A stretch of DNA of 53,686 bases from Synergistaceae bacterium (GTDB taxonomy: Bacteria > Synergistota > Synergistia > Synergistales > Synergistaceae). Position numbers and translations under genes: made by a program. The DNA lies in assembly GCA_031268885.1 (NCBI GenBank), contig JAIRWR010000057.1, positions 1-53,686 on the forward strand. The letters are read 5' to 3'. Below, in pieces: positions 1,168 to 6,644 of this stretch; the stretch's first letter is position 1, and each line of letters begins with the position of its first letter. The notes under the pieces were generated by a model that saw nothing but the letters and a program-made list of their open reading frames with translations, was not told where the DNA came from and did not search any database.

Positions 1168-1965
1168 CTAAATCCTCGGAAGAGCGGCAAGCAGAGAGCG
1201 GGTGTATTCATGGGAGGGGCGTTCGAAAAGCTCATCCGTGCCGCCGGACTCCACTATCTCGCCCCTGTACAGAACCAGCGCCTGTTTCGCGGCCTGTCTC
1301 GCCAGCAGAAGATCGTGCGTGACAAGTATCATCGACATGCCGCGTCTGACCCGGGCGATCAGCACATCTAGGACCTCGCCTCTCGTCGATACGTCTTGCA
1401 TCGCTGTCGGCTCGTCACAGAGAAGAACTTCGGGGTCAAGAATCAGCGCCCTGGCCACGGCCACCCTCTGACGCTGTCCCCCTGACAGCGAGTATTTCAC
1501 CCTCGCCCCCCACAGATCCTCCGGCAATTTGAGTTCCAACAGCAGTTCCTCCGCCTTGGCTATGCCGCGTTCGCGCGTTTCGCCGCGCGAGCCGCGGACT
1601 ATGCTCCAGGGCTCAATCACCGCTCCGAGAACAGTAAGCGTCGGCGGCAGAGAACCGTACGGGTCCTGCGGGACGTAGCCGCATCGCCGCCGGACCGCGA
1701 GGCGTTCATCATCCGTCATCGCGGCGAGAGACCGCCCCCAGAGTTCGATCTCTCCAACCGTCGGCCTGACTAGCCCGAGCAGGGAGCGCAGAAGTGTCGT
1801 CTTGCCGCTTCCCGACTCGCCGACGACCGACAGGGTCTCTCCGGCGCACATCGAAAAGGATACCGACTTGAGGGCCCAGACGCCCTCCCCCCTGCTGAAA
1901 AACGAACTTCCGGTCCCGCCATATCGGACGCCAAGACCTTTAACATTCAGACTTATCCCAGACAT
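1168..1965 (-). CDS. Peptide/nickel ABC transporter ATP-binding protein (DppF/OppF type)
   Basis: Cytoplasmic ATPase, 265 aa, the second nucleotide-binding subunit of the five-gene peptide-type importer on this strand. Walker A GESGSGKTTLL near residue 50, signature LSGGQRQRVAVARAL near 160, Walker B LLCDEPTAM near 182. The usual DEPTSALDVS reads DEPTAMQDVS here, a mild change next to Walker B. The C-terminus (Y-RGEIVESGGTDELF...H-YT-SLL) is typical of OppF/DppF. Start ATG overlaps the last base of the preceding ATPase stop (TAATG), consistent with translational coupling. It is the promoter-distal gene of the operon. Substrate class is inferred from family only. Confidence 0.93.
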   Translation of the reverse strand: MSGISLNVKGLGVRYGGTGSSFFSRGEGVWALKSVSFSMCAGETLSVVGESGSGKTTLLRSLLGLVRPTVGEIELWGRSLAAMTDDERLAVRRRCGYVPQDPYGSLPPTLTVLGAVIEPWSIVRGSRGETRERGIAKAEELLLELKLPEDLWGARVKYSLSGGQRQRVAVARALILDPEVLLCDEPTAMQDVSTRGEVLDVLIARVRRGMSMILVTHDLLLARQAAKQALVLYRGEIVESGGTDELFERPSHEYTRSLLAALPRI

Positions 1966-2786
1966 TACGGAAGGACCTCCGGCGGCTTCTCCATCGCGCG
2001 AATCGCTTCGATGAGTTTTTTCGTATAGTCATGTGCCGGCTCCGTTACAATCTGCCGCGAGAGCCCCTTCTCGACGATCAACCCATCCTTCATGACGGCA
2101 AGTCTGTCACAGACTCCAGCCGCGAGGGGCAGATCGTGAGTCACCAGCAGCAGGCCCATTCCGCGTCTCCTGGCCAGGCCGGTTATCGTCTCCAGTACTT
2201 CGCTCTGCGTTATGACATCGAGCGCGGTGGTCGGTTCGTCGGCAAGGAGAAAGTCCGGATCGCAGGCGATCGCCGCCGCAAGAGCGGCCCTCTGCTTCTG
2301 CCCTCCCGACAGCTCGTGCGGATAGCGTGTCAGAATGGAGGTTTCAAGCCCGGCGGTGAGCGCCAGATCCGCCGCCCGCTCTCTCCCCTCGCGCCTGCTC
2401 ATGCCCATGTGACAGGTCAGAACCTCGGTTATGTGCCGCTCGATGGAGAGATGAGGCGTAAAGGAGTTCATCGCGCCCTGAGGAACAAGCGCTATCCGCC
2501 TCCAACGCCATTTATTCAACTCCTCCTCGCTCAGATTGGCTATATCGGTCCCGTCGCAGATAATCTGTCCTGTGACGAGCGTTCCAGCCGGCAGCAGGCG
2601 AGGAATTGCCATCAGGGCGCTGGATTTTCCGCTGCCGGACTCTCCCACAAGGCCGATTATCTCCCCCCTCCGAATCCTGAGCGAACAATCTTTCACAGCG
2701 CGGACGCTCTTGCCGGAGCCTCTGTAGGTGACGGATAGGCCGCGTATCTCCACGGCGTTCTCCGCGCTCGGTTCGAAGGGGCTCAT
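1965..2786 (-). CDS. Peptide/nickel ABC transporter ATP-binding protein (DppD/OppD type)
   Basis: First ATPase subunit of the peptide-type importer, 273 aa. Walker A GESGSGKSSALMAI near residue 50, signature LSGGQKQRAALAAAI near 160, Walker B LLADEPTTALDV, H-loop VTHDLPLA. Slightly short for OppD (usually about 320 aa): the C-terminal Cys-rich motif (PRCP...C) that closes many OppD/DppD proteins and can bind an Fe-S cluster is absent, the protein ending soon after the DYTKKLIEAI helix. Start ATG overlaps the stop of the upstream permease (ATGA), so it is part of one tightly coupled operon. Confidence 0.93.
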   Translation of the reverse strand: MSPFEPSAENAVEIRGLSVTYRGSGKSVRAVKDCSLRIRRGEIIGLVGESGSGKSSALMAIPRLLPAGTLVTGQIICDGTDIANLSEEELNKWRWRRIALVPQGAMNSFTPHLSIERHITEVLTCHMGMSRREGRERAADLALTAGLETSILTRYPHELSGGQKQRAALAAAIACDPDFLLADEPTTALDVITQSEVLETITGLARRRGMGLLLVTHDLPLAAGVCDRLAVMKDGLIVEKGLSRQIVTEPAHDYTKKLIEAIRAMEKPPEVLP

Positions 2787-3967
2787 ATCTTAACCTCCTG
2801 TTCTATCTTGGCCGAAAGGCGAGGGTCAGCTCGCTCCTCCAGTCTGCGCCCGATGTCCATGAAGACAAGGCATATCAGTGAAATCCCTATCCCAGGGGGC
2901 AGAATCGTCCACCACGCGCCGTTCGTGAACGCCCCGAACGTGTGCGCCTCGTGCAGCATCCGTCCCCAGGACTGGACGCGCGGATCGGAGAGCCCCAGAA
3001 AGGCCAGCCCCGCCTCCGCAAGTATCGCGCCCGGAACCCCGAGAGCCACGTTTGCCAGCAGCAACGGCATCGTCTCCGGCACGAGGTGCCTGAATATTAT
3101 ATAGTTCCGCTTCGCGCCCAGCGCGCGGAGACCCTCGACCCATGGGGCGTCCCGCAGCGACATGGCCATGGAGCGCACGGTCCTCGCGGTTCCCATCCAC
3201 GAGAATACGGACAGTATCACCACGAGATTCCAGAGCCCCTTGCCCCATATCCCGGCGAAGATCATGAGAATGGGCAGGGTGGGAATGGAGAGCAGTACAT
3301 CGACTATCCTCATTATCAGCGCGTCCGTCAGGCCGCCGGCGTATCCCGACAGCAACCCGAGGGACATGCCGAGTACCGTCGATATCAGGGTGGCGGCAAT
3401 CCCGACAAGGAGCGATACGCGTATGCCACGGATCAGAAGAGTCGCGACATCGCGTCCGCGCTGGTCCGTCCCGAGCCAGCCCCATCTGCCTCCCTCCACC
3501 CTCATCTCGACACTCCCGTTGCCTCCGCTCAGTGAGAGGACATATTCGCCCTGGGATGGAAAGAGCGCCCGCGTCACGTCGTCGAATGGGCTGAATCCAA
3601 GCGCCCTCTTGAACGAAATGTCGCGAGCGTCGAGGTCAAGCTCACCGGCGCCGGACGCCAGCGGAAACGTGCCGTCAGGCGTCCTCCATTCGAGCCGTCC
3701 GCCGTCCATGCGCCCGGTTATAGATATTCGCGTCGGGGCCTTGTAATTCCACATCAGCTGCGCCGACGCGCTCTCCGGGCCGTCGCCGGCATCGATACCG
3801 AGCACCGCGACACCGCCGATGGCATGGTCGAGCCATATCGGCTTGGAGTACGGCGGCGCCTTCTGTCCGTCCTCCAGGCCGAAGATACCGGGGCCCAGGA
3901 TCGCGAGGAGAACGAGAATGCCTAAGCATATCAGGCTGAGATGCCTTTTCATGGTCCGCGGCTTCAT
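2783..3967 (-). CDS. Peptide ABC transporter permease (DppC type) with large extracytoplasmic insert
   Basis: Inner-membrane permease, 394 aa from the ATG that overlaps the upstream permease stop (ATGA). TM1 is residues 9-28. The conserved DppC motif GWLGTDQRGRD does not appear until about residue 163, whereas in ordinary DppC/OppC it lies near residue 70-80; the roughly 100 extra residues (about 35-160) are polar, Gly/Asp-rich and look beta-rich. After it come the usual membrane segments, the EAA-like loop (LRALGAKRNYIIFRHLVPE, around 300) and the terminal LEERADPRL. I chose the internal start because the longer reading frame only adds a low-complexity Arg-rich tail. Works with the DppB-type gene just upstream. 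Confidence 0.9.
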   Translation of the reverse strand: MKPRTMKRHLSLICLGILVLLAILGPGIFGLEDGQKAPPYSKPIWLDHAIGGVAVLGIDAGDGPESASAQLMWNYKAPTRISITGRMDGGRLEWRTPDGTFPLASGAGELDLDARDISFKRALGFSPFDDVTRALFPSQGEYVLSLSGGNGSVEMRVEGGRWGWLGTDQRGRDVATLLIRGIRVSLLVGIAATLISTVLGMSLGLLSGYAGGLTDALIMRIVDVLLSIPTLPILMIFAGIWGKGLWNLVVILSVFSWMGTARTVRSMAMSLRDAPWVEGLRALGAKRNYIIFRHLVPETMPLLLANVALGVPGAILAEAGLAFLGLSDPRVQSWGRMLHEAHTFGAFTNGAWWTILPPGIGISLICLVFMDIGRRLEERADPRLSAKIEQEVKI

Positions 3968-4932
3968 CCGCGCGTACCTTCGCCTCTGACTCTGGGATCG
4001 GCCAGGGCGCAGCAGAGATCGGCCAGCAGATTGCACCCTATTGTTAGAAGCGCGAGCAGGAAGAACGCCGCCCCAGCCGCCGGGTAATCATGAGAGTTTG
4101 TGGCCTCCAGCAGAAAGCGCCCCACACCGTTCAGGGAGAAGACGGTCTCGGTTATGACCGCGCCGCTGACGACGCCAGGCAGAGAGAGGAGAAGGATTGT
4201 GAGAACCGGCGGCAGAATGGAGCGGAACGCGTGGTTCCACACAACTCTTCGGCGAGGAAGGCCGCGAGCGCGAGCCATGAGCACATAATCCTCTCCCATC
4301 GCCTTCACCATCATATTGCGGATGTAAAGCGCCCAACCCCCGAAGCTGAGGACGACGAGGGAGAAGAGCGGCAGCGCGAGGTGCCAGAGATAGTCGGCAA
4401 AAGCCGCGATTCCGGACGGGGGAGGGATCGATGTCGTGCCGCTCAGGGGAAAGACCGGCCACGCGAACGCAAAACAGAGCAGAAGCAGAAGCTGCACGAA
4501 GAACGACGGGAAGGAGAATGACACCGCGCCGCCGATCAAGACCAGCCTTTCGACAATAGATCCACGCCTCTGCGCGGCCTTGACCCCGAGCCACACCCCA
4601 AGCGCCGCCGACAGTATCAGCGCTGGAAGAAGAAGCGCGACGGTGTTCGGCGCCCTGTTTTTAAGCTCATCCCATACTGGGGCGCCGGTCATCATAGACA
4701 GACCGAAACGAAATGACAGCATCTCGCGGATGTACACGACAAACTGTTCCGACAGGGGCTTGTCCAGACCCCACTGGGCTGCGAGCTGCTGTTTTGCCTC
4801 GGGTGAGAATCTCGGATCCACAACGCCGGTCAGCGGGTCGCCGGGCATGACGCGGAAGAGCAGGAAGTTGAGCGCCAGAACGACCGCCAGCACGATGACG
4901 GAGCTGAACAGACGCTTCCGCGCGGAGGTCAT
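3964..4932 (-). CDS. Peptide ABC transporter permease (DppB type)
   Basis: Inner-membrane permease, 322 aa. TM1 (residues 8-24) is followed by the DppB/OppB signature FLLFRVMPGDPLTG and by PRFSPEAKQQLAAQWGLDKPLSEQF, then five more membrane segments, with the EAA loop MARARGLPRRRVVWNHAFR near residue 220. The start is the ATG whose bases overlap the stop of the binding-protein gene (ATGA at 4929-4932); the longer open frame upstream runs antiparallel to that gene's end and is not convincing. Partner of the DppC-type permease that follows. Confidence 0.92.
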   Translation of the reverse strand: MTSARKRLFSSVIVLAVVLALNFLLFRVMPGDPLTGVVDPRFSPEAKQQLAAQWGLDKPLSEQFVVYIREMLSFRFGLSMMTGAPVWDELKNRAPNTVALLLPALILSAALGVWLGVKAAQRRGSIVERLVLIGGAVSFSFPSFFVQLLLLLCFAFAWPVFPLSGTTSIPPPSGIAAFADYLWHLALPLFSLVVLSFGGWALYIRNMMVKAMGEDYVLMARARGLPRRRVVWNHAFRSILPPVLTILLLSLPGVVSGAVITETVFSLNGVGRFLLEATNSHDYPAAGAAFFLLALLTIGCNLLADLCCALADPRVRGEGTRG

Positions 4933-6644
4933 CTCTCCGCTCCCTCGCCATCTTTGAATAGTATGAAGTGTTCGTTTCGCGTCATGTGAACGTACTCCCC
5001 AGTCCTGGACTCGACGAACACAAAGGGGCCGGAGCCGACGAGTTCGGTCATGACCGTCCCGTCCAGCGCCGTGTGAGTGGTGTTTGTGGGCTGCCATGTC
5101 CGCCAGTCCGCAACCCCCTCCAGGATATGCTTGGGCAGTACGAGCATCCCTCCGATGTTATGCAGGTGCCAGTAGCTGGTGTTTGCCATGGTTATCCGCA
5201 CCGTTCCGCTGGCCGGATCCGTCTCTATCGAATGTACGTCCTTGACAGTGTCGAAGAATCTCGGGACACTGTTCTCCTTGATGAAGCGTATCGAGTACTC
5301 GACGTCGTCCACGGTGAGCGGGCGTCCGTCCTGCCACTTCAGTCCGGGGCGCAGGGTGAAGGTTATCACCGATCCGGGGCTGCCAGGCCTTATATCCCAG
5401 CTCTCCGCGAGCCACGGCATGTCCTCGAATGTGTAGGGATCGACCGAGATGAGCGAGTCGTATACGGAGCCGAGCACCGTCCAGTCATATGCCGTAGACG
5501 ACACGAGAGGATTCAGCGTTCTGATCTCCGAAGGAATGTTCCAGTAGATCGGGCGTTCCCCGCCGCCCTTAGGGGTCATGGATATCAGAGTGAGCAGGTT
5601 GTCGGAAGTGGATCTGTCGGTGGTAAACGCCCCATTCCAGTCATTGCGTATCGCGGAGATCGAGTATCGGCTGTATATTGGGATGACCGGCGTCAGCTCC
5701 GACAGGATTTTCTGCGCCCGCGAGGCCGCCGCGCGCGCGGAGGGCTCGTCCGGCGCGTAGCGCAGGTCAAGCAGCGTCCGGTCTAGCTCGGGGTCTGATA
5801 TCCCGCTCATATTGTATCCCCCCTCGACATCCATGGACGAATGGTAAAACGAGTACAGGACATCCGGATCGCGCGACATGCTCCATGCGTTGGTGCAGGC
5901 GTCGAAGTCCCGCGCGTCCACCCTGGCGAGCATCGTCTGAAAGTCGATGGGCTCAGCCTCAACCGGAATGCCTATGGACATCAGCGCCTCGGCCATGAGC
6001 ATGGCGATTTCGGTCGTCGTAGCGACTACCGACGAGGGCGGGCAGAGGATCTTCGTCGGAGGGACCTCCCGCCCGTCGGGCGCGACCAGCCAGCCGGAGA
6101 TATTCCACGTCCAGCCTGCTTTCGCCAGCCGCTCGCGGGCGGCGTCGATCCCGGCAGGAAGCGTTGGGGCGTCCGGGTCATAGTAGGGCGAGATCTGTGG
6201 CAGAAAACCCGACGTCGGCTCGCAGAAGCCCGAGAAGAGATCTCTCGTCCACCGTCTGCGCTCGACTACCTGTGACGCCGCCTGGCGGAGGATGGTCTGA
6301 TCCCATGGAAATTCGCGCGTATTGAAGGTTATGAAGAACCCGTGAAAGCCCGGCGCGATCGACATGTCCACCGTTCCGGACTTGACCAGTCTGTCCGCGT
6401 CCGCGGGGCGGTATATGTCGGACAGCACGTCGAGCTTCCCCGTGGACATCGCCAGGAGCTGAGCGTCCGTATCGCTGATGATGACGTAATAAAGATCCTT
6501 CATCTTTGGCCCCTGAAATTTCGATATGTCGAGGGACGCAACGGCCGTCTCTTCCCCACACGCGATGCTAGCCGGCCATTGGAACGCGGCCGGTGCTGAG
6601 ATAAACAGCAGAAAGATAACGCAGAATTTAAAAATACGGTTCAA
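4929..6644 (-). CDS. Family 5 extracellular solute-binding protein, apparently circularly permuted
   Basis: Lipoprotein-like or secreted binding protein for the peptide importer, 571 aa. Start is a TTG six bases after a full SD (GGAGGTG, minus strand 6651-6657); residues 1-30 form a signal peptide. The domain order is reversed against SBP_bac_5. Residues about 45-350 match the normal C-terminal half: ISDTDAQLLAMSTGKLDV, then an RQAASQVV helix, a lid segment with AAR-RLAKAGW, a DFDACTNAW strand and ILSELTPVIPIYSRY. Residues about 360-571 match the normal N-terminal half: SEIRTLNPLVSST, VYDSLISVDP, WLAESWDI, LRPGLKWQDGRPLTVDDVEY, VLPKHILEG, VGSGPFVF and TRNEHF at the very end. The cut falls at the loop after the family's rN-x-YW motif. 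One intact frame, coupled to dppB. Confidence 0.88.
   Translation of the reverse strand: MNRIFKFCVIFLLFISAPAAFQWPASIACGEETAVASLDISKFQGPKMKDLYYVIISDTDAQLLAMSTGKLDVLSDIYRPADADRLVKSGTVDMSIAPGFHGFFITFNTREFPWDQTILRQAASQVVERRRWTRDLFSGFCEPTSGFLPQISPYYDPDAPTLPAGIDAARERLAKAGWTWNISGWLVAPDGREVPPTKILCPPSSVVATTTEIAMLMAEALMSIGIPVEAEPIDFQTMLARVDARDFDACTNAWSMSRDPDVLYSFYHSSMDVEGGYNMSGISDPELDRTLLDLRYAPDEPSARAAASRAQKILSELTPVIPIYSRYSISAIRNDWNGAFTTDRSTSDNLLTLISMTPKGGGERPIYWNIPSEIRTLNPLVSSTAYDWTVLGSVYDSLISVDPYTFEDMPWLAESWDIRPGSPGSVITFTLRPGLKWQDGRPLTVDDVEYSIRFIKENSVPRFFDTVKDVHSIETDPASGTVRITMANTSYWHLHNIGGMLVLPKHILEGVADWRTWQPTNTTHTALDGTVMTELVGSGPFVFVESRTGEYVHMTRNEHFILFKDGEGAER

Follow-up and report, generated by a model that had tools for sequence, protein, structure and literature searches.

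Can a family-5 substrate-binding protein (SBP) of an ABC importer carry its two halves in reversed order and still take its usual place in a transport operon? The question is raised by one gene in the 53,686-nucleotide stretch of Synergistaceae DNA analysed here (the window), which is contig C108 of a 2.4-Mb draft genome in 136 contigs. An earlier note on this DNA had read the gene as a circularly permuted family-5 SBP that is coupled to dppB and is probably functional. Its parts are as follows.

4929..6644, minus strand: circularly permuted SBP_bac_5 substrate-binding protein (class C1), 571 aa, TTG start; assigned from the Pfam order and the conservation of that order in Synergistota.
6540..6644, minus strand: signal-peptide-like leader; assigned from the sequence and alignment A1, where a variable hydrophobic leader precedes an invariant GP (no predictor was run).
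5571..6512, minus strand: original C-terminal half, now N-terminal, residues 45 to about 358; Pfam and PDB-sequence alignments.
5541..5591, minus strand: fusion linker (TLISMTPKGGGERPIYW, about residues 352-368) by which the old C terminus runs on into the old N terminus, with SMTPKGGGERPIYW at about residues 355-368; length and motif are the same in C1 and in a second class, C2.
4932..5567, minus strand: original N-terminal half, now C-terminal, about residues 360-571; Pfam and PDB-sequence alignments.

The single intact frame, the TTG start and the ATGA coupling to dppB that had been claimed can all be read in the sequence: a GGAGG site precedes the start at 6644, the TGA stop lies at 4931-4929, and the end of the gene overlaps the dppB ATG at 4932-4930. 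Pfam assigns the protein to one family only, SBP_bac_5 (PF00496; 180.9 bits against a cut-off of 32.4, with two orthologues at 223-231 bits), in two stretches of reversed order. Residues 45-269 correspond to profile positions 145-363, and positions 4-141 come later, which departs from the linear domain order of the family; in the genome search the two pieces scored separately (E 2.4e-28 and 1.2e-23). The halves are thus swapped as proposed, and the family motifs do not stand in normal order, an outcome that would have refuted the proposal. Matches to the NCBIfam equivalogs DppA, OppA, NikA, GsiB and SapA were partial or in pieces and all far under cut-off. A DPD/NPD motif is typical of many family-5 members, and it is kept here, with P260 and D261 invariant in alignment A1.

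Alignment to the normal-order PDB protein 5isu_A places residues 369-559 on 23-199 and residues 46-338 on 204-480. Because the two pieces abut in 5isu_A (199|204), no part of the domain is missing. The new termini fall directly after TRNEHF and before GPKMKDL, in the short loop past the rN-x-YW strand, where the earlier note had put them, and the old ends are connected by about a dozen residues. Its break at about 5565 likewise marks correctly where the old C and old N termini meet (linker SMTPKGGGERPIYW). Since both parts are homologous to one ordinary protein, rotated cyclically with none missing, the C1 protein is a strict case of circular permutation.

Could the order be an artefact, with two adjacent SBP genes wrongly joined in a chimeric contig? 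The genome is a draft, and the two tandem normal-order SBP genes of Rhizobium leguminosarum (L068) do put the C half of one gene beside the N half of the next. Full-length collinear matches, however, occur in nearly every sampled family of the order at 41-78% identity, nearly always as one open frame, and dozens of independent genomes, several of them single-contig, share the same order, open frame and linker. These orthologues refute misassembly, the remaining refuting condition of the earlier note, and we give it practically no credence.

The search profile for C1 was built from 18 diverse members (alignment A1). With it, 83 of 149 Synergistota genomes were found to carry C1. In a wider draw of 389 genomes (about 185 Synergistota and about 204 from other bacterial phyla), C1 was present in 106, all from the window's own order, so that the expected same-order homologues in related genomes exist in abundance; none was detected in the about 204 genomes of other phyla at the threshold used, and searches beyond the phylum were samples of genomes only. 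No homologues were found in viral contigs. C1 is an order-wide, ancient form and not one isolated gene. Because 86 columns are invariant across the 18 diverse members of A1, the usual family motifs among them, the aligned sequences indicate that the protein is clearly under selection, which supports the reading of a probably functional protein. The annotated permuted proteins that we inspected were named only 'ABC transporter substrate-binding protein'. Two loci carry the gene in pieces. In one near-complete genome (L057:2880-2980; G088:C1 about 1107433) it is split into two overlapping frames by a frameshift at residue about 398, a short way past the junction, which may be a sequencing error, a pseudogene or a two-piece protein; in another (L062:2-1604; G099:C43) it is spread over two frames, between which about 45 residues are missing.

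What the protein does is suggested by its neighbours, since the C1 gene leads a five-gene operon of SBP, dppB, dppC, dppD and dppF.

3964..4932, minus strand: DppB-type permease; Pfam BPD_transp_1 and BPD_transp_1_N, ATGA overlap with the SBP gene, conserved SBP neighbour.
2783..3970, minus strand: DppC-type permease with a large insert ahead of the transport domain; Pfam BPD_transp_1 only at residues 201-380.
3482..3883, minus strand: DppC insert, specific to C1 operons and about 130 aa long; present in 102 of 185 Synergistota genomes.
1965..2786, minus strand: DppD-type ATPase; Pfam ABC_tran and oligo_HPY, order conserved.
1168..1965, minus strand: DppF-type ATPase; Pfam ABC_tran and oligo_HPY, order conserved.

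This order was kept in all 10 C1 loci checked for neighbours; DppB/C/D/F-type operon partners are usual, not universal, for SBP_bac_5. By homology and genomic context, and with no biochemical data, the C1 product probably serves in the periplasm as the binding protein of a Dpp/Opp-type importer, whose substrate would be peptides or some related solute. We consider it very probable that it is a truly permuted family-5 ABC importer SBP of normal fold that delivers peptides or a peptide-like solute to DppBC/DppDF and that shares one fusion origin with C2; the fold, the transport, the ligand and the duplication route are inferred. In the mechanism that we propose, the old C and N termini of a family-5 SBP would have been joined via a short linker, and new termini would have opened in the loop following the rN-x-YW strand. 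Both original termini lie in domain I in known family-5 members. The protein would then most likely take the normal two-lobed family-5 shape, most likely capture peptides or a peptide-like solute, and pass the captured solute to its own DppBC permease, powered by DppDF.

AlphaFold2 models of the protein with and without signal peptides gave mean pLDDT values of 44.7 and 42.3, and the input homologues were only close ones (about 71-79% identical). Such low-confidence models weigh neither for nor against the fold, which for this reason is argued from sequence alone. The absence of a confident model leaves some room for a domain-swapped dimer or oligomer, in which the N half would pair with the C half of another chain, or for a sensor in place of transport, and the extra DppC region accompanying C1 suggests an altered complex. 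Against this, the import operon is conserved with two permeases and two ATPases, and a short linker can bridge the ends within one chain if both lie in domain I. We regard a swapped or sensory protein as quite improbable.

The DppC insert follows the first membrane segment and precedes the transport domain, in a region that lies outside the membrane by the usual topology. The window's DppC aligns nearly full length with the DppC of C1 operons; its alignment to the permeases of C2 operons or to E. coli DppC begins only at residue about 159-166, past the insert. The insert had no PDB match, and no Pfam family covers this region of DppC. Insert and C1 occur together in 101 Synergistota genomes, with C1 alone in 5 and the insert alone in 1, and no insert was found in 79 other-phylum genomes (positive control, the window's own genome). 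This co-occurrence is no independent test, as the two belong to one operon in related genomes. That the insert accompanies the permuted SBP suggests co-adaptation, which remains a hypothesis; with this pair, the adaptation of a transporter to a permuted partner becomes testable.

A side match in another Synergistota genome pointed to a second permutant class. The gene at G036:C273:49616-51289 (L056:1117-2790, minus strand) aligned to the C1 query as 210-560 followed by 43-192; its product (P0002) carries SBP_bac_5 profile positions 2-286 at its end and the remainder of the profile at the front, and dppB lies directly downstream. Its termini thus fall at Pfam position ~286, unlike those of C1. 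Plasmids of Halalkalicoccus (43%), Nitratireductor, Microvirga, Neorhizobium, Roseomonas, Ketogulonicigenium, Haladaptatus and other haloarchaea carry relatives that are full-length and collinear with P0002. One C2 protein of Halalkalicoccus is WP_238532955.1. The members of this class, C2 (L056, L074-L082, L094 and L095), come from haloarchaea, Alphaproteobacteria and one Synergistota genome; within the phylum only G036 has C2. All eight C2 proteins scanned with Pfam carry profile positions 1-5 to about 284-297 at the end, and the pieces on either side of the C2 cut abut in the normal-order protein 8efz_A (334|335). A set of 80 genomes from other bacterial phyla, without a positive control, yielded no C2 at E 1e-48. 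Annotated C2 genes adjoin permease and, mostly, ATPase genes, and their neighbourhoods often hold peptidase, hydantoinase or creatininase-family genes. The Nitratireductor C2 operon (L075:8658-12631) encodes a 557-aa DppC-type permease whose transport domain is preceded by a long extension, together with a 767-aa ATP-binding protein that is probably a fused ATPase pair.

Do the two classes descend from one fusion event? They have the junction in common, which consists of a strand usually with W, then EP..G, and after these the old N-terminal strand followed by LNP. Fixed points in it stand 28-32 residues apart in every case; one C2 protein (L080) is without the EP..G motif and others (e.g. L075) retain only the P. 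For the trees, C1 and C2 proteins were rotated to ordinary order by script and compared with ordinary members. In a first, smaller tree, C1, C2 and an ordinary Cytobacillus protein (L086) formed a clade with 99.7 SH-aLRT. Half-domain trees also placed C1 and C2 with L086 (SH-aLRT 87 for the N half, 97 for the C half), and by this agreement the two halves have one phylogenetic history and come from one ancestral gene. A later tree, to which nearer ordinary relatives (Meiothermus and others) were added, recovered a C1 plus C2 clade with 93 bootstrap and 86 SH-aLRT, with normal-order proteins as its sister and 100/97 for the whole clade. Placing C1 or C2 alone with L086 and the Meiothermus protein L097 was rejected by the AU test (p 0.003 and 0.005).

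The principal alternative is that C1 and C2 are two independent permutations that chanced to join the same natural termini. The fold fixes the old termini, so that the ends to be joined are the same for any permutant; support for the C1 plus C2 clade is only moderate (93/86), with C1 on a long branch (1.1), and the first tree did not reject C2 grouping with ordinary L086 (p 0.48). Linker length and the EP..G motif are nevertheless the same in both classes, and the alternative groupings were rejected once nearer normal-order relatives had been added. We judge independent origins to be unlikely. Because C1 and C2 form one clade, the alternatives are rejected and the junction is common to both, the sequence comparisons suggest one fusion of the old ends followed by two cut sites as the best-supported history. 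The fused junction would then most likely have arisen once, in a common ancestor of C1 and C2, with the C2 ends in a different loop.

The simplest route, which is inferred, would start from a tandem duplicate, from which the two lines then lost different outer portions; trimming at different places would give one junction and two cuts. The earlier note had proposed that the outer halves were lost after a tandem duplication, and the agreement of the half-domain trees and the C2 class, with the same junction and other ends, are consistent with this, but no fused tandem dimer was found as an intermediate. Open reading frames of about 850-1100 aa were considered as candidate dimers, and the ones fetched proved to be normal-order SBPs with an open upstream frame, or separate tandem genes. 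Rhizobium leguminosarum matches that resembled full-length permutants were actually two tandem normal-order genes (L068:3835-7080), a layout that could yield a permuted gene. A wider hypothesis is that a single fusion of termini founded a lineage across Bacteria and Archaea with ends at two loops, and that the Synergistota DppC gained an outside-membrane region that docks the permuted SBP. We hold this only tentatively, as somewhat more apt to fail than to stand, and the docking is inferred.

Among known systems, the DppA-OppA (cluster C) SBPs with DppBCDF are the natural reference. The likeness lies in both C1 halves scoring well above the Pfam cut-off, in the signal-peptide-like leader and in the DppB/C/D/F homologues of the operon; the differences are the reversed halves of C1, the last part of the profile moved to the front in C2, and the extra DppC region in C1 operons. 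The nearest normal-order relatives found, Cytobacillus L086 and Meiothermus L097, form the sister group. L086 differs from C1 and C2 in its normal order and in a C-terminal membrane-anchor-like tail: a serine/threonine-rich stretch followed by a C-terminal membrane segment with basic residues (L086:1465-3261), which would be an unusual way to anchor an SBP.

Permuted proteins are widely engineered for biosensors; natural circular permutations of SBPs appear almost undescribed, with one sugar-binding case found. The ancient C1 form, conserved order-wide in a complete operon and with a sister class cut at a second place, provides a natural record of chain ends moving, and family-level annotation hides such proteins. 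A literature search, which did not cover preprints and most subscription papers, found no permuted peptide- or dipeptide-binding (family 5) SBP, in line with the earlier note, whose writer knew of none. C1 thus adds a naturally permuted SBP to a family for which we found none described, and a second, related permutant turned up unexpectedly.

The one case found is TpMglB-2 (Tp0684), the glucose-binding protein of Treponema pallidum, a natural circularly permuted SBP designated 'Type Ic / Cluster Bc' (PMC4990184). N-lobe strands that E. coli MglB has near its N terminus lie near the C terminus in TpMglB-2, which has an extra hinge crossing; its authors consider that the permuted part may derive from another gene (PMC4990184). 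The C1 protein shows no homology to MglB or Type I sugar SBPs, as Pfam gives only SBP_bac_5. Like C1, TpMglB-2 is a natural permuted SBP common to a lineage; it differs in belonging to a sugar-binding cluster (Type I / B), whereas C1 and C2 are family-5 proteins with two cut points and one junction.
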